Source of the DNA: Clostridia bacterium
GTDB taxonomy: Bacteria; Bacillota_A; Clostridia; Oscillospirales; CAG-272
Length of the DNA stretch: 18,314 nt
NCBI GenBank assembly: GCA_017652965.1
Contig: JAGBZZ010000158.1
Span: 1 to 18,314, forward strand
Direction: 5' to 3'
Positions within the stretch are counted from its first letter, which is position 1. Every line of letters starts with the position of its first letter. Positions 7,754 to 18,314 of the stretch are shown here, one piece after another. A program made the position numbers and the translations under genes. The notes beneath the pieces are model-generated. The model saw only the letters and a program-made list of their open reading frames with translations, was not told where the DNA came from and searched no databases.

Positions 7754-8608
7754 TTACAAAACCGCATTCAAAAATTGCTGTGTTCTTGGATTTTTCGGGT
7801 GGTCAAAAATGTCCTCGGGCGTCCCCTGTTCGGCAATCACGCCACCGTCCATAAAGAGGATGCGGTCGGCTACCTCGCGGGCAAAGCCCATCTCATGCGT
7901 GACGATCACCATCGTCATGCCTTCCTCGGCAAGCTGGCGGATAAGATCCAAAACCTCGCCGACCATCTCGGGGTCAAGGGCACTTGTCGGCTCGTCAAAC
8001 AGCATGACCTTCGGGCTCATCGCCAGTGCGCGCACGATGGCGATACGCTGCTTCTGTCCGCCCGAAAGGGTAGAGGGATAGACGTTTGCCTTTTCCTCAA
8101 GCCCGATACGGCGGAGAAGGGAATAAGCCTTGTCCTCGGCGGCCGCCTTAATGGCCTCCTTGGTTTCGGTAATCTCGATCAGCGGACGCTTATCCTTACG
8201 GAAGAGATTCCCGATCTTGATAAAGAAGTTCTTGGCCTTTTTCTTTCTGAGATTTCTGTACCCTACGTAAAGCGGGGCAAGCGTGATGTTCTGCAGTACC
8301 GTTTTGTTGTTGAAGAGGTTAAACTGCTGGAACACCATGCCGATATGCTCACGGTGGAGGTTGATATCGACCTTGGTATCCGCAATATCGACACCGTCAA
8401 AGAAAATAGAACCGCTTGTCGGATCCTCCATGCAGTTAAGGCAACGCAGGAAGGTAGACTTGCCGCATCCGGACGGACCGATAATAGCGATTTGCTCACC
8501 GTTTTCGATGTCGAGGTCAAGGCCGCGAAGGACATGGTTCTCTCCGAAAAACTTTTCAAGCTTGCGGACAGAGAGAATGATCGAGGAGGAAGCATCACTT
8601 GCGTTCAT
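7754..8608 (-). CDS. Polar amino acid ABC transporter ATP-binding protein (GlnQ/HisP family) with an insertion
   Basis: 284 residues against about 240 for usual GlnQ. It powers amino acid import with the permease and binding protein encoded just upstream. Visible motifs: Walker [10 protein letters not shown] (44-52), Q-loop in MVFQQFNLF (91-99), signature LSGGQKQR (181-188), Walker B VMLFDEP (201-207), D-loop SALD, and switch His238 in VTHEMG. The extra length is a basic, lysine- and phenylalanine-rich insert at about 118-155, between the Q-loop and the signature helix, containing [20 protein letters not shown]. The ATG has AAAGGAGG (8627-8620) ahead of it and overlaps the permease stop by 14 bp, so the two are translationally coupled. 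It is the last gene of the operon and is followed by a long hairpin. Substrate is probably a polar amino acid; which one is unknown. Confidence 0.93.
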
Positions 8609-9311
8609 TCTTGTTTAACCTCCTTTCAAGAAGCTTGACACCGAATGCGATCGTCATAACGAGCACGATGTACATGATGGCCATTGCGAAATAGGGCATA
8701 AGGAATTCATAGCGGACGTTACCGATTTCGGTAAAGGTCTTGTAAAGGTCAACGGCGGCAACAAAGCTGACGACCGAGGTGTCCTTTACGAGGGCAATGA
8801 ATTCGTTGCCGAGCGTGGGAAGAATGTTTTTGATAGCCTGGGGAACGACGATCTTCAGCATAGAGACGGCGTAGGGAAGGCCGACCGCTCGTGCCGCCTC
8901 CAGCTGACCGCGATCAACCGAGTTGATACCTCCGCGCATTACCTCCGAAACGTAAGCACCGCTGTTCAAACCGAAAACGAGGATACAGGTGGAAAGCGAG
9001 GTGATCGTAATGCCGAGAAGCGGGAAAAGCACGTAGTAGGCGATCAGCAACTGCACCACGATAGGCGTACCGCGGAAGAAGCCGACGTACACGGTGCAAA
9101 GCTTATCAAGAATGCGCGGAAGGCGCTTGTACTTCGGCATCACCCGCACGATGGCGATCAGCGTACCGATCAGGATGCCGATCAAAAGGCCGAGGATGGC
9201 GATCAGAAGGGTGTTTCGCAAGCCTTCGAATACAACACGCCTCCATCCGCCCTTGTTGAAGAACAGATCGATAAAAATCTGGAACTTATAGGCTAAGCTG
9301 GATAAATTCAT
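8595..9311 (-). CDS. Polar amino acid ABC transporter permease (HisM/GlnP family)
   Basis: 238 residues from the ATG at 9311, chosen because AAAGGA lies eight bases upstream; an in-frame GTG at 9329 has no ribosome site. About five hydrophobic segments are visible. Family landmarks are [10 protein letters not shown] (78-87) and the cytoplasmic EAA loop [20 protein letters not shown] (138-157) that docks on the ATPase, followed by [16 protein letters not shown]. It forms the membrane channel of the importer. Only one permease gene is present, so the transporter is expected to use a homodimer. It is separated from the binding-protein gene by a 9-bp hairpin and overlaps the ATPase gene. No alteration of key motifs was noticed. 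Confidence 0.94.
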
Positions 9312-9335
9312 GGTAATGATCCTTTGCACGCAACA

Positions 9336-9377: not shown

Positions 9378-10235
9378 TTAGTTTCCGTTGACGCTGGAGG
9401 CAATTGCCTTTGCGGGGCCGTTGTCCACGATCACGAAGTTGATATTGCCGTTGATCATATCGTTAACAGCAAGAGCGGCGTAGGTGTAGGACTTCTTTTC
9501 AACCGGGAGACCGGGGAAGCCATAGCCGCCTTCGCTATCGTCACCGTCGATGTAAAGCTCGCCGGTGGTGCCCTTCTGGCAACCGATCTTGGTGGCCGAG
9601 GTAAGCTCAGCGAGGATGGCCTCAATCTCAGCGGCGGTCGTGCAAGCATCGAAGGTGGTGTCCTCAGCGCGAACTACGAGAACCTGAGAAGCGTTGTAGT
9701 AGCTGTCGGTGAAGGTAACGACTTCAGCACGGTCGGGAGTGACAGAAAGACCGGCCATACCGATATCGCAGATACCGGACTGAACGGCGTTCACAACAGC
9801 CTCGAACTCCATATCCTGGATAACGAGCTCCTTGCCGAGGGACTCAGCGAGGTAGTAGGCGATCTCGAGGTCAATGCCGGAGTACTTGCCGGCGGCGACC
9901 ATCTCGAAGGGCTCAAAGCCGGTGCTGGTGGCAACTACGAGCTGATCCTTGCTGGCATCGAGGGTGGCAGAGGTGATCTGGAGAGGAGTGCCATCACCGA
10001 AGTAGTTGTTGCAGATCGCATCGAATTTGCCGTTTTCCTTGATCTCGGCGAGGAAGGCATTGACCTGATCCTTCAGCTCGGTATCGGCCTGGTTGACACA
10101 GAAGGCATACTCTTCTTCGGAAAGGGCGATGTCGATAACCTTAACGACGGGCTTGGCTTCGCCGCACGAGGCGAGGGCGAGGAGAGAGCCGCAGAGAAGC
10201 ACGGCTGCGAGGGCGAGGGAAATAATCTTTTTCAT
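9378..10235 (-). CDS. Amino acid ABC transporter substrate-binding lipoprotein, apparently circularly permuted
   Basis: 285 residues from the ATG at 10235, which has AAGGAG at the right distance; the ATG at 10241 is too close to it. A lipoprotein signal peptide ends at LLALASC with Cys24 as lipid anchor, so it sits on the outer face of the membrane. Residues 98-285 match the N-terminal and middle part of family-3 binding proteins: TGFEPFEM (105-112), GIDLEIAYYLAESLG, GICDIGMAGLSVTPDRAE with the ligand-binding Arg169, KGTTGE (221-226) and the hinge VIVDNGPAKAIA with Asp271. Translation stops at VNGN. The part that normally follows (strand, long helix, NGKFDAI..NYFG) is instead found at residues 29-82, just after the signal peptide. 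It is the first gene of the operon, behind a consensus promoter. That it is a binding protein is secure; the permutation is inferred from motif order. Confidence 0.92.
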   Translation of the reverse strand: MKKIISLALAAVLLCGSLLALASCGEAKPVVKVIDIALSEEEYAFCVNQADTELKDQVNAFLAEIKENGKFDAICNNYFGDGTPLQITSATLDASKDQLVVATSTGFEPFEMVAAGKYSGIDLEIAYYLAESLGKELVIQDMEFEAVVNAVQSGICDIGMAGLSVTPDRAEVVTFTDSYYNASQVLVVRAEDTTFDACTTAAEIEAILAELTSATKIGCQKGTTGELYIDGDDSEGGYGFPGLPVEKKSYTYAALAVNDMINGNINFVIVDNGPAKAIASSVNGN

Positions 10236-10285
10236 GATCATACTCCTTATAGAATTATTAATTTGTTTTCTCTTGGTGTGATACC

Positions 10286-14187: not shown

Positions 14188-16959
14188 CTACGGCTGTGTA
14201 GCCGTTCTTTTCGTTTTCCTGCGGCGCAGCATCCGCTCACCGATCATGGTGCCGCCAAAGACACAAAGACCGGCGGTAAAGCAGCATGCGGCATAGACGT
14301 ATTCCTTGGGGCTGTACTCCAGCTCCAGTGTGTATTCTCCCGGGGCAAGATCGAAAGAAAGCAGGGCATCCAGCGTTTCATAGCCCTCCACCGGCTGCCC
14401 GTTGGCCGTGATCCTCCATCCGGCATCGTAGGGGATGGTGGTCAGGATCGTTTCAAAGCCCTCGCTTACCGTGATCTTACCGCAGAAATAATCCTCGGTA
14501 CAGGTCTCTACCTCGTATCCGCCCGCGCACAAGGTATCGATCAAGCGGCGGTAGACGGCACGGTCCATCGAATAAAAGTATTCGACATTGCGATTGATGT
14601 ATATGCCTTCGTCTCCAAGCTGGAAGGTCACCACGCATTCCTCACCTGCCTCGTAGGAGCCGAGGCAAAGATAGCCGGATTCCTCCCAAACAAAGTGCCT
14701 GCCGATATGCTCGCCGTTCAGATAATACTGTGCTTCCTTGTAGGTATCGGTGGGGAAGTAGGCGAAGATCTCGCTCTCTTCTGTGACGGACAGCCTGAAG
14801 TTGACGTAGGCATCCTGCCCGGCATTTCGCTTGGAATAGTGACGGGAGGAGGAGAGGTGATAAACGTTTTCCCCGGTGTAACGGTACTCAACGGGGGAAA
14901 ACAGCACCACGTCCTCGCCCAAAAGCGCCTTGGCCAGGGCATTCATCCGTTCAAAGGGAGAGCCCTCGGAAATGATGGTGCGGTTGTCATCCGGGTCTAT
15001 ACGGTTTCCGTCCTTATCGTATTCTCTCGGCAGAAAGGTGATCGTGTGGACGTCATCCGAAACCCCGAAGGCGATGGGAAGCGCATCGGGATTGCGATAC
15101 GCAACGGTGTCGCCGTCGTTATAGATCTCCACGTAGCTGTCCGGGTAGATCATTCCGACCTCGCCAAGGACGTAGGATATCGAGAGAAAGGAGTCTACAA
15201 AGGGATTGGTCCCGGTGTAGCAGGAGGCATGATAGGCCGAGGCATAGCCCATCACGTTCAAAAAGGAAATGGTGTCGCGGTTGAGGGTTGACGTGGATCC
15301 TGAGACCCCGCGGTAATTAAAAAGGTAAGGATCGTTGACCCTGCGATAGCGGAGCTTTTCCATGCGGTAAAAGGGGGCTTGGGTATCCGCCTTTGCCGCC
15401 TCTGTGGCACCCTCCCACCGGTGCAGAAAATCGTAATAGGAGGCGCGGGAGGCTCGTCCGACGTCCATATAAAGCTGGCCGGTATTGACAAGCCCGCCAA
15501 GCATCATTTCAAGTGACACCAGCACAAGCAGGCAAAGCGAGGCATAGCGGCGCGAAACGTCCCGCCGCATGATGAAAAAGGCGAGGGCGATGACGTAAAT
15601 ACCGATGCAAAGCAGATTAAGCGGGACCGGGAAAAAGACGGTCTCCATGTGCTTGTAGCCAAAATGCTCGGCCAGGATCAGGATGAGCGATAGCGGTGTC
15701 GCGGCATAGATGACCCAGCGCGCCCGATGGGAGCGGATATCCTCAAATCCCTTGGCCGCCATCCCCACCAGCAAAAAGGAAAGCATGTAGCTATAGCGGT
15801 AGTTCAGCCAGTTGGGGGCCTGTCCGCCGTGCCATATAAGGTCTATGACGTGCACGGAAAAGCAGAAAAGGAGGAAAAGCGAAAGGAGGAGATTTGCTCC
15901 CTTTTCACGGGTGGATACCCTGCGGCTGATGAAATAAAAGGGAATCAGCATCAGGGTGATGAGGCCGCAGTAAAGATTGGGCAGTCCCTCCGGCCGTACG
16001 GTGTCGTACGAGGCGAAAAAGAACTTGGTCAGGATGTCCAGAATGTCTTGCTTGACGACAAAGTCGTAGCTTGGGCTGGAGAAGGTGTCTTTGCCAAAGG
16101 TAAGGGCGTACACTGCGGGAATGACGGTCAGCATGCTGATCGCCCCCGCCGTAAGCGAGAAGAAGCCGAAGCGGACACCCGAGCGCAGAAAATTGGCGCG
16201 CAGGCCGCGCGGATTTTTCTCCTTTGGTGTCAGCGCCAGATGGACGTAGAAAAAATAGAGGACACAGAAAATACAGGTCATATACCCGATGTAGTAGTTT
16301 GACATCATGCAAAGCACCAGGCTGACGGTATAAAGCTTGTATTTTCCTTCACTGACCAAGGCCCGTATCCCCACTGCCACCAGCGGCAGAAGGATCACGT
16401 TGTCTACCCACATGGTGTTATGCTGCATGACAACACTGTAAGCGGTCAGCGAATAGACGGTGGAAAACATGACGGCAGTAACAGGGGAAAGCCGTGCGGT
16501 CTTTTTCAGATAGTATCCAAAGGAAAGCCCTGAAAGCCCCTGCTTTAAAAGAAGCAAGAGAAAGAGGGCATCCAGCATTCCCTCACGTGGGAAAAGTGCG
16601 ACGAGATAGGAAAGCGGTGAGGCAAGATAATACGCATATATCCCTAAAAATTCCCCTCCAAGTGAACGGGAAAAGGAATATAGCAGGGAGGCATCGCCGT
16701 AGATGAAGCTGCGTAGGGCTTCAAAGAAGTAGACGTACTGACCGTTGAGATCCAACGTGAGAACCGAGTTCGCTCCAAACGGCCACACTCCCATGAAGGC
16801 ATAGATGAGCATCATAAGGAAAAAGGGGAGTGCAAAGCAAAAAAGGAGATAAGAGGAGGGATGTGCCCGATATTCCCGTATCAGCCGCCAGCGAAGCTTA
16901 CAGAGGGGGGAGGGGGAGATGCCGATCTCCTCCCCCGGTGATCCGTTTTTGCGCCTCAT
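14188..16959 (-). CDS. YfhO-family integral membrane protein (GT-C-type glycosyltransferase)
   Basis: 923 residues. After a short cytoplasmic N-terminus the first membrane helix spans about 36-58. It is followed by the family motif NSVLTLDLNGQYVYFFEALR (64-83), where D70 in the first external loop is the likely catalytic or metal-associated acid of GT-C enzymes. About a dozen further membrane helices run to around residue 490. A large extracytoplasmic beta-rich domain then ends with TTIPYDAGWRI, and one last membrane helix precedes a basic tail RRRKTKR. In B. subtilis YfhO adds sugars to lipoteichoic acid on the outer face of the membrane using a lipid-linked donor; the substrate here is unknown. 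The start ATG overlaps the stop of the preceding YfhO gene (ATGA). The two proteins are clearly related at their C-terminal domains. Confidence 0.9.
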   Translation of the reverse strand: MRRKNGSPGEEIGISPSPLCKLRWRLIREYRAHPSSYLLFCFALPFFLMMLIYAFMGVWPFGANSVLTLDLNGQYVYFFEALRSFIYGDASLLYSFSRSLGGEFLGIYAYYLASPLSYLVALFPREGMLDALFLLLLLKQGLSGLSFGYYLKKTARLSPVTAVMFSTVYSLTAYSVVMQHNTMWVDNVILLPLVAVGIRALVSEGKYKLYTVSLVLCMMSNYYIGYMTCIFCVLYFFYVHLALTPKEKNPRGLRANFLRSGVRFGFFSLTAGAISMLTVIPAVYALTFGKDTFSSPSYDFVVKQDILDILTKFFFASYDTVRPEGLPNLYCGLITLMLIPFYFISRRVSTREKGANLLLSLFLLFCFSVHVIDLIWHGGQAPNWLNYRYSYMLSFLLVGMAAKGFEDIRSHRARWVIYAATPLSLILILAEHFGYKHMETVFFPVPLNLLCIGIYVIALAFFIMRRDVSRRYASLCLLVLVSLEMMLGGLVNTGQLYMDVGRASRASYYDFLHRWEGATEAAKADTQAPFYRMEKLRYRRVNDPYLFNYRGVSGSTSTLNRDTISFLNVMGYASAYHASCYTGTNPFVDSFLSISYVLGEVGMIYPDSYVEIYNDGDTVAYRNPDALPIAFGVSDDVHTITFLPREYDKDGNRIDPDDNRTIISEGSPFERMNALAKALLGEDVVLFSPVEYRYTGENVYHLSSSRHYSKRNAGQDAYVNFRLSVTEESEIFAYFPTDTYKEAQYYLNGEHIGRHFVWEESGYLCLGSYEAGEECVVTFQLGDEGIYINRNVEYFYSMDRAVYRRLIDTLCAGGYEVETCTEDYFCGKITVSEGFETILTTIPYDAGWRITANGQPVEGYETLDALLSFDLAPGEYTLELEYSPKEYVYAACCFTAGLCVFGGTMIGERMLRRRKTKRTATQP

Positions 16960-18314
16960 TTTGCTTTGCCGTTCTTTTTTTGCTGTTGCTTTTTACCCTT
17001 GCTGCCGTTCCCCTTTTTCGGGGTATCTGTGGCGGCCTCCTCAAAGGCGTTTTTTTCATCCGCCTTGGGAAAGGGAGGGAGGAGGAACAGAAGGATCCGC
17101 CCGAAGAAGGATCTACCCGATACCGAGATCCTGTTTTTCTTACGCAGGATCTCCAGGGTTACGATAGCGGCAAAGAGCAGAAGTGCGGCAAGCGAGGCAA
17201 GAAGCCCCACAGTGTAGATAGAGGGACGGTAGCGAAGCGTGATCTCATAGGTGCCCGCATCGGGAAGGTCGAAGGCCAACATGGCATCCATCGTCTGATA
17301 GCCGGTGACGGCTGCGCCGTCCACCTCGATCTGCCAGCCGGCGTCGTAGGGGATGGTGGTCTGCACAGTGGTAAAGCCCTCGGTAGCCGTCAGTGTCCCA
17401 CAGAAGTGATCGTCATCGGCACGCGTCAGGTTGATCCCGCCTGCCTGCAGGATGTTGGTGGCACGCGTCAGATCGGCTTCGTCGATCGTATAGAAGTAGG
17501 GGATACTGTCGATCAGGTAGAATTCGCCGTATTTTTCGATGGACAGCTCAACCGTGACGGTTTCACCGGGAAGGAAGGTGCCAAGCGAAAGGACGGTGGC
17601 GATGTTGGCGCATTCCGGGTACAGGGGATTTGCCTGCTTTTCGCCGTTGACGTACATCGTGGCTTCCCGCGTGTAATAGGAAGGGAAGTAGCAGTAGATG
17701 GGCGAAAGCGTGTCGGGGGCGACAAAGGTCAGTACGATGCGTGCGGTCGAGTTATTCTTTTCGGTTTTGAAAACGGCGTGGCTCCAGGCGTTTGCCTCAC
17801 GGCGCATCCCGCCGTCAACGGTAAGGGTGGAGTCGATGGGATCGTAAACCGTAAGGGTGCTGTCCCCCGTCATAGCGGCATAAATGCTATTCATACGCGC
17901 AAAGGGAGACCAAAGGGCGTTCTTCCACTCCTCCTTCAGCTTATAAATGCCGCCGTCAAGCTCATACCCCTCTGGGGGATTGGTGGGCAGGGCAAAGGTG
18001 ATATCGCGGATCGCACCGTTAGAGGCAAAGGCAAGGGGGAGGGCGTAGGGGTTGCGGTAGGTGACGGTTGCGGTGCCGGCCTCGGCATCGCCGTCCCGAT
18101 GGTATTCGGAATAGAGCGGGTCGACCTCCTCATCCGCCTTGGCGACCCAGTATTTCACGCCGAGAAGCGAGTTGGTGACGATCGTGGAGCCGGTGGCCTC
18201 CGTCCAATGAGAATTGGCCTTGAGACCGATGGCGTGCTGGAATTTGACAACGCTTGCGTTCAGCGTGGAGGTGGAGGAGGCAAGACCGTTATAGCCGAGA
18301 ACAAAGGAATCGCA
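16956..18314 (-). CDS. Second YfhO-family membrane protein, N-terminus beyond the window
   Basis: The frame is open through the right edge, so only the C-terminal 452 residues are visible; the GTG at 18158 is not a needed start because the upstream in-frame residues (GYNGLASSTSTLN, TNSLLGVKYWV) are typical of the family. The visible part is the extracytoplasmic domain with TVTYRNPYALPLAFA, a TTIPYDAGWQIEVDG stretch and TMDAMLAFDLPD. A final membrane helix (SLAALLLFAAIVTLEIL) and a cytoplasmic tail of about 60 residues that becomes very lysine/glutamine-rich follow. The same blocks occur in the downstream gene (TTIPYDAGWRI, TLDALLSFDLAP), so the pair looks like an old tandem duplication. Its stop overlaps the next start by four bases. 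Role presumably glycosylation of a cell-envelope polymer, as for its neighbour. Confidence 0.88.
   Translation of the reverse strand, partial: CDSFVLGYNGLASSTSTLNASVVKFQHAIGLKANSHWTEATGSTIVTNSLLGVKYWVAKADEEVDPLYSEYHRDGDAEAGTATVTYRNPYALPLAFASNGAIRDITFALPTNPPEGYELDGGIYKLKEEWKNALWSPFARMNSIYAAMTGDSTLTVYDPIDSTLTVDGGMRREANAWSHAVFKTEKNNSTARIVLTFVAPDTLSPIYCYFPSYYTREATMYVNGEKQANPLYPECANIATVLSLGTFLPGETVTVELSIEKYGEFYLIDSIPYFYTIDEADLTRATNILQAGGINLTRADDDHFCGTLTATEGFTTVQTTIPYDAGWQIEVDGAAVTGYQTMDAMLAFDLPDAGTYEITLRYRPSIYTVGLLASLAALLLFAAIVTLEILRKKNRISVSGRSFFGRILLFLLPPFPKADEKNAFEEAATDTPKKGNGSKGKKQQQKKNGKAK

Follow-up and report, generated by a model that had tools for sequence, protein, structure and literature searches.

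Circular permutation in a family-3 amino-acid-binding lipoprotein of Clostridia and its probable origin

Is the order of segments in the substrate-binding proteins (SBPs) of amino acid importers fixed, or can it rotate in nature, and if so, by what route? The question is raised by a minus-strand gene in an 18,314-nucleotide stretch of DNA from a Clostridia bacterium (contig JAGBZZ010000158.1, assembly GCA_017652965.1), called the window here. The gene encodes a lipoprotein of the family-3 binding proteins (PF00497), for which an earlier note, made from the letters alone, had claimed a circular permutation. We name the segments after canonical members: N is the mature N-terminus with the first half of lobe 1, M is lobe 2, and C holds what remains of lobe 1 together with the second hinge strand and the final strand of lobe 2. 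Canonical family-3 proteins read N-M-C, whereas the window protein reads C-N-M and has its termini and anchor at the lobe 2/hinge edge. We take it, with a probability of about 0.86, to be a permuted substrate-binding lipoprotein of a polar-amino-acid ATP-binding cassette (ABC) importer that was rotated by tandem duplication followed by trimming.

Segment order and predicted fold

Protein Data Bank (PDB) sequences match the window protein in swapped order. In 6svf, query residues 97-231 correspond to chain residues 8-133 and residues 31-82 to 177-228; in 4zv1, the corresponding pairs are 101-280 with 12-174 and 32-83 with 182-233. The family profile matched 77 PDB sequences, and among the 60 listed 6h30 alone had a best match collinear across the whole stretch C-N-M; this tandem protein holds the same C-then-N junction (profile match 43-265, residues 187-395). 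PF00497 itself scored 109.4 bits (cut-off 26.4) in two stretches, the kind of split for which the earlier note had suggested looking. The window protein is therefore a member of the family; it departs from the canonical N-M-C order and is a permuted member. A Pfam search at E up to 0.1 gave only PF00497 and PF10613, and no homology to cluster B (type I sugar-binding) proteins.

The rotation also improves the scores. When every rotation of the protein was scored against Escherichia coli GlnH, the top score of 209 fell to cuts at 83-100 (unrotated, 174), close to residues 81-98, where the linker had been placed. With a hidden Markov model (HMM) built from 21 canonical seed proteins, the score rose from 132.0 bits unrotated (model positions 37-204) to 176.4 bits rotated (38-258). 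Shuffling the moved segment 300 times gave a mean of 132.8 and a maximum of 138.9 bits, so the effect of rotation is far beyond chance, and the canonical seed proteins themselves gained nothing when their sequences were doubled and scored with the same HMM. No segment is lost and none duplicated, as had been claimed, and the chain ends just short of the segment with which canonical proteins go on. On these sequence comparisons the domain is confirmed as circularly permuted.

Residue numbers here refer to the 287-residue translation of the open reading frame (ORF) 9378-10241 (-). The second ATG, at 10235, is the likely start because AAGGAG, read by eye, lies 7 nucleotides 5' of it; in the resulting 285-residue protein Cys26, R171 and D273 are Cys24, R169 and D271.

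The predicted model of the protein is confident, the mean predicted local distance difference test (pLDDT) score being 91-97 in 10-residue blocks of residues 31-80. DSSP assigns a strand to 33-49 and helices to 54-69 and 72-81. The single 17-residue strand lies where the final lobe 2 strand is expected to continue into the second hinge strand, and residues 96-287 match about residues 1-176 of canonical chains in structure comparison. The two-lobed type II fold would be intact in the rotated chain. The new termini had been placed after the hinge crossing; by the hinge numbering of GlnBP, they lie before the second crossing, and in the model the moved segment carries the last lobe 2 strand along with the second hinge strand and what is left of lobe 1.

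Residues R171, D273 and G224-T-T-G227 are invariant in 73 aligned sequences (72 relatives and the window protein), which bears out the expectation that ligand-contact positions were kept. R171 aligns with GlnH R75; D273, in the motif VIVDN, was paired with GlnH D157 by eye, the pairwise alignment having misplaced it. The arginine presumably binds the carboxylate and the aspartate the ammonium group of a ligand, and the window protein would be expected to bind an amino acid.

Relatives and recurrent rotation

A search of 5.8 billion proteins, in which 7998 candidates were scored, returned 4852 matches, and each of the best 120 listed has the order C-N-M. A genome scan gave 482 related stretches. 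All of the 80 loci kept, which belong to Clostridia or other Bacillota and come in many cases from animal gut samples, hold one full-length collinear rotated gene (that of L031 reaches the contig end). Among 79 genes considered, 74 of the 75 loci that could be tested have a permease downstream, and 69 of 69 have an ATPase. With the permease next door in nearly every testable locus, the window protein is very probably a working component of an amino-acid ABC importer; its operon and conserved ligand-site residues favor the function that had been thought probable. The ratio of nonsynonymous to synonymous substitution rates is 0.033-0.168 in the 25 most similar permuted pairs listed (78-98% identity), and by this measure the permuted genes are shown to be under purifying selection.

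The survey of homologues that the earlier note had called for extends well beyond the window's own group. Adjoining the C-N-M gene of locus L022 is a family-3 binding protein of order M-C-N (L022:2358-3146, +), which is cut where lobe 1 passes into lobe 2 and whose confident model has a pLDDT of 89.8 and a predicted TM-score of 0.80. The best 120 of 7234 matches to it (P0121-P0240) are all M-C-N, 119 by the doubled-sequence test and P0137 by two ordered matches. In 480 proteins, the doubled-sequence test gave 231 C-N-M, 141 M-C-N, 86 canonical and 15 partial cases, with 7 too long or too short; some genes were fetched twice, and since the searches were seeded with permuted proteins, these counts are not a prevalence and other cuts may be missed. 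In model positions, the junctions lie at 193-212 in C-N-M proteins and at 128-139, 145 or 164-165 in M-C-N proteins; L221, L222, L223 and L274 represent the third of these sites (about 164). With lobes assigned from the GlnBP structure, the junctions fall where the chain leaves lobe 1 for lobe 2, in mid lobe 2 (the third site) and ahead of the second hinge strand, none of them inside lobe 1. Both hinge strands would then be kept in C-N-M and one in M-C-N. M-C-N binding domains also occur within ORFs of about 527 amino acids (L144:663-2246, +; L247:387-1970, -); that of L144, read by eye, runs on into permease-like transmembrane sequence, and rotation and transporter fusion seem combined there.

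Did these orders arise once or repeatedly? A tree was made from 108 domains brought by rotation to a shared order (227 columns); they had been thinned by order class from 465 sequences at 68-80% identity. Canonical and permuted states require 17 changes on it (shuffled mean 33.1; 0 of 500 shuffles as low), and well-supported branches force at least 14 of these changes, with at least 8 for C-N-M and at least 9 for M-C-N. The approximately unbiased (AU) test rejects a single C-N-M clade (log-likelihood 725 lower, p 1.4e-49); a single M-C-N clade is likewise rejected (569 lower, p 6.8e-5). Some rotations have close canonical counterparts: in shared order, L120 has 74.3% identity to canonical L150, and L125 has 76.2% to canonical L192. 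The window's clade (16 rows, support 100/100) has its nearest canonical relatives at 38-42% identity and is, judged by these distances, older than rotations of the L120 and L125 type. By the tree, rotation in family 3 is shown to have arisen several times, the window's clade being one among many.

Among genomes, the counts are lower bounds, as at most 10 candidates were scored per genome in the surveys of 245 genomes of the class and at most 6 or 8 in those of 398 genomes of the phylum. The window's family is present in 18 of the 245 (matched over all or nearly all of its length with E values of 1.3e-104 or lower; 8 by profile matches alone) and in 2 of the 398, one of which was the search centre. 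At least one permuted protein occurs in at least 55 of the 245. A profile of the C-N junction matches 301 of the 398 genomes, but most listed rows cover its N part only; of 30 loci fetched from this search, 8 are rotated (L249-L252, L254, L255, L257, L274), including four at places found before.

Route of rotation and its rivals

The proposed route would begin with an in-frame tandem duplication of the mature domain within one lipoprotein gene (N-M-C to NMC-NMC). Removal of the leading N and M would then give C-NMC, and C-NM would result once the final C was lost. The M-C-N forms would arise in the same way with the cut elsewhere. Proteins resembling each stage occur in a subfamily other than the window's. 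L253:1090-2640 (-) is a single lipoprotein with two complete domains 79.2% identical and no second signal peptide. Among the best 120 of 7450 matches to it (itself included, as P0241) are 12 tandems without a detected permease, 50 tandems with one, 47 single canonical proteins, 6 C-NM, 2 C-NMC (P0257 and P0305) and 3 others. Ten of the 12 permease-less tandems (P0241-P0244, P0246, P0306, P0311, P0313, P0315 and P0324) have a lipobox and halves 80.5-98.7% identical. In P0246 and P0313, among others, the halves are each other's nearest rows on the tree, so these in-gene duplications seem to be recent and to have recurred. Identity between the two C copies is 55.8% in P0257 and 50.0% in P0305. 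Such homologues, with both the leading C segment and a C segment in its normal place, had been named beforehand as evidence against permutation; they exist, but in another subfamily, and look like the expected intermediate rather than a refutation. Going by these sequences, the tandem, C-NMC and C-NM forms are likely the series expected from duplication, fusion and trimming, and we infer that the clade of the window protein was rotated in this way. The binding proteins P0327 and P0304 repeat parts of themselves (the first N stretch is present three times in one case, and there is an extra M piece in the other), perhaps through slippage or assembly errors. L256 has two adjoining genes, 50.4% identical and 12 bases apart.

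Several observations weigh against this account. In the protein itself, GlnH Asp10 corresponds to Ser106, and residues of the model before 94 are mostly unaligned by sequential aligners. The 108-row tree is unrooted, so that its changes may include reversals, the long rows L139, L140 and L247 are uncertainly placed on it, and a poorly resolved tree of the N segment (99 columns) has 20 changes of which only 6 are forced. C-NMC was found in only 2 of the 120 proteins listed, in the other subfamily, and its place beside a C-N-M clade is poorly resolved; the classified relatives of the window's clade included neither C-NMC nor tandem forms. Near 142 permuted genes with flanks there were no fresh remnants, 5 having weak SBP-like matches (25-29% identical). 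The tandems P0253 (halves 69.3% identical) and P0279 (62.2%) lack a lipobox and resemble cut-short permease fusions. Finally, near-identical halves could partly be assembly errors, and gene conversion would also keep halves alike.

Other explanations fare worse. All C-N-M proteins might descend from one rotated ancestor, their canonical-looking neighbours being misplaced or reverted; the unity of the window's clade and the nearly common place of all C-N-M cuts fit this idea, which is nonetheless very improbable given the AU test and the grouping of L120 and L125 with different canonical proteins on well-supported branches, and a reversion would itself be an order change. Hardly more probable is that the C segment completes a neighbouring molecule, as in a domain-swapped dimer, so that the rotated chain would not close into a fold as a monomer. 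Helix-swapped dimers are formed by TmArgBP, which matches the protein closely in structure; the confident single-chain model speaks for a closed monomer, though a one-chain prediction is compatible with swapping. That the gene is a fragment of a two-domain protein, or an artefact of assembly or gene calling, was also considered, as a C-N junction exists inside tandem proteins such as 6h30. Its own signal peptide, lipobox, ribosome site and stop, the layout conserved in all 80 loci kept and all 120 proteins listed, the purifying selection and the lack of a convincing second domain beside permuted genes refute this for practical purposes.

Whether the rotation was neutral is a separate matter. 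The chain runs from lipid anchor through C segment and linker to the N and M segments; as the chain is rotated, the anchor enters at the lobe 2/hinge edge and not at lobe 1. The protein would still work as other type II binding proteins do, enclosing an amino acid between the two lobes and docking on the permease, and the moved anchor site may affect these steps. It is possible, though on balance doubtful, that rotation was retained because an anchor on lobe 2 aids docking on the permease. Every cut seen is within lobe 2 or at one of its edges (lobes again as in GlnBP), and a tethering advantage has been proposed for the permuted protein TpMglB-2 (PMC4990184). Against this, 79 of 86 sampled canonical proteins are also lipoproteins, and neutral tolerance of cuts accounts for the sites equally well. 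A broader picture, in which the family-3 proteins of Clostridia are a hot spot of recurrent permutation by duplication and trimming, with cuts always within lobe 2 or at its edge and rotated forms kept for moving the anchor from lobe 1 to lobe 2, is tentative and falls a little short of even odds.

Operon, known systems and meaning

The binding protein, permease and ATPase genes form a three-gene minus-strand operon of the polar amino acid ABC importer class (Table 1). In the ATPase, some 40 residues appear to be inserted ahead of the signature region, and the listed NCBIfam models match this protein in two stretches. Elsewhere in this clostridial-type genome, the window encodes an F420-0:gamma-glutamyl ligase family protein (PF01996; 10600-11790, -) and, near its end, two adjoining YfhO membrane proteins (14188-18158, -), the upstream ORF of which matches the C-terminal part of the family only (575-834 of 835).

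Table 1. Features of the binding-protein gene and its operon in the window
Feature	Position	Strand	Description	Basis
Binding-protein gene	9378..10235	-	Circularly permuted family-3 amino-acid-binding lipoprotein (from sequence comparison), order C-N-M, 285 aa	
Signal peptide	10164..10235	-	Lipobox LASC at end; predicted lipidated Cys26	Sequence; Cys26 invariant in 73-sequence alignment
C segment	9996..10148	-	Residues 32-82 (canonical C-terminus): last lobe 2 strand, second hinge strand, two lobe 1 helices	Matches PDB chain ends; DSSP of model
Linker	9942..9995	-	Residues 83-100; joins old C- and N-termini	Best GlnH score for all cuts 83-100
N segment	9663..9941	-	Residues 101-193 (canonical mature N-terminus, first half of lobe 1); holds R171	Border to M approximate
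M segment	9381..9662	-	Residues 194-287 (lobe 2); GTTG stretch and D273	
ABC permease	8595..9329	-	HEQRo-type; 48 bp downstream	PF00528; TIGR01726 75.7 bits (cut-off 42.2)
ABC ATPase	7754..8608	-	GlnQ-like	PF00005; best NCBIfam match GlnQ, under its equivalog cut-off

Canonical family-3 proteins (type II, cluster F), such as E. coli GlnH and Thermotoga maritima ArgBP, are homologous to the window protein in all three segments and share with it the counterpart ligand-site arginine and aspartate, an operon with a HEQRo-type permease and a GlnQ-like ATPase, and the predicted lobes. The tandem substrate-binding domains of GlnPQ type (6h30), which are fused to the permease, have the same C-linker-N junction between domains 1 and 2, but these are two complete, unpermuted domains, whereas the window protein has one permuted domain. 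No report of natural circular permutation in family 3 was found in the literature; the earlier note's remark that no example was known holds to that extent, a permuted protein being known from another cluster. This is TpMglB-2 (Tp0684) of Treponema pallidum, a naturally permuted lipidated ABC-importer binding protein of 'Type Ic/Cluster Bc' for which ligand binding and conformational change were measured (PMC4990184). It differs from the window protein in binding glucose, in its type I/cluster B fold and in being cut in another place, with a fourth hinge crossing; it was proposed as one subclass, and the passages of that paper drawn on here describe no recurrent origins or intermediates. Closer in family are sensors engineered from the lysine/arginine/ornithine (LAO)-binding protein, a family-3 member, in which the old termini are joined by a linker and the cut lies in the hinge (PMC5087393, after Okada 2009). 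These are man-made, whereas the rotation in the window is natural. The hinge-cut LAO-binding protein still binds lysine, more weakly (PMC5087393), and rotation is therefore compatible with function.

As a rule, the origin of a natural permutation has to be deduced from its two end states. The present family contains canonical, tandem, half-trimmed and rotated proteins side by side, with rotated and canonical pairs as close as 74-76% identity, so that the route and its fitness effects are directly testable. Annotation that is blind to order, with one PF00497 label and the usual product name, hides a change of topology in at least 55 of the 245 sampled genomes of the class. The rotated proteins are also natural designs for permuted binding-protein sensors.
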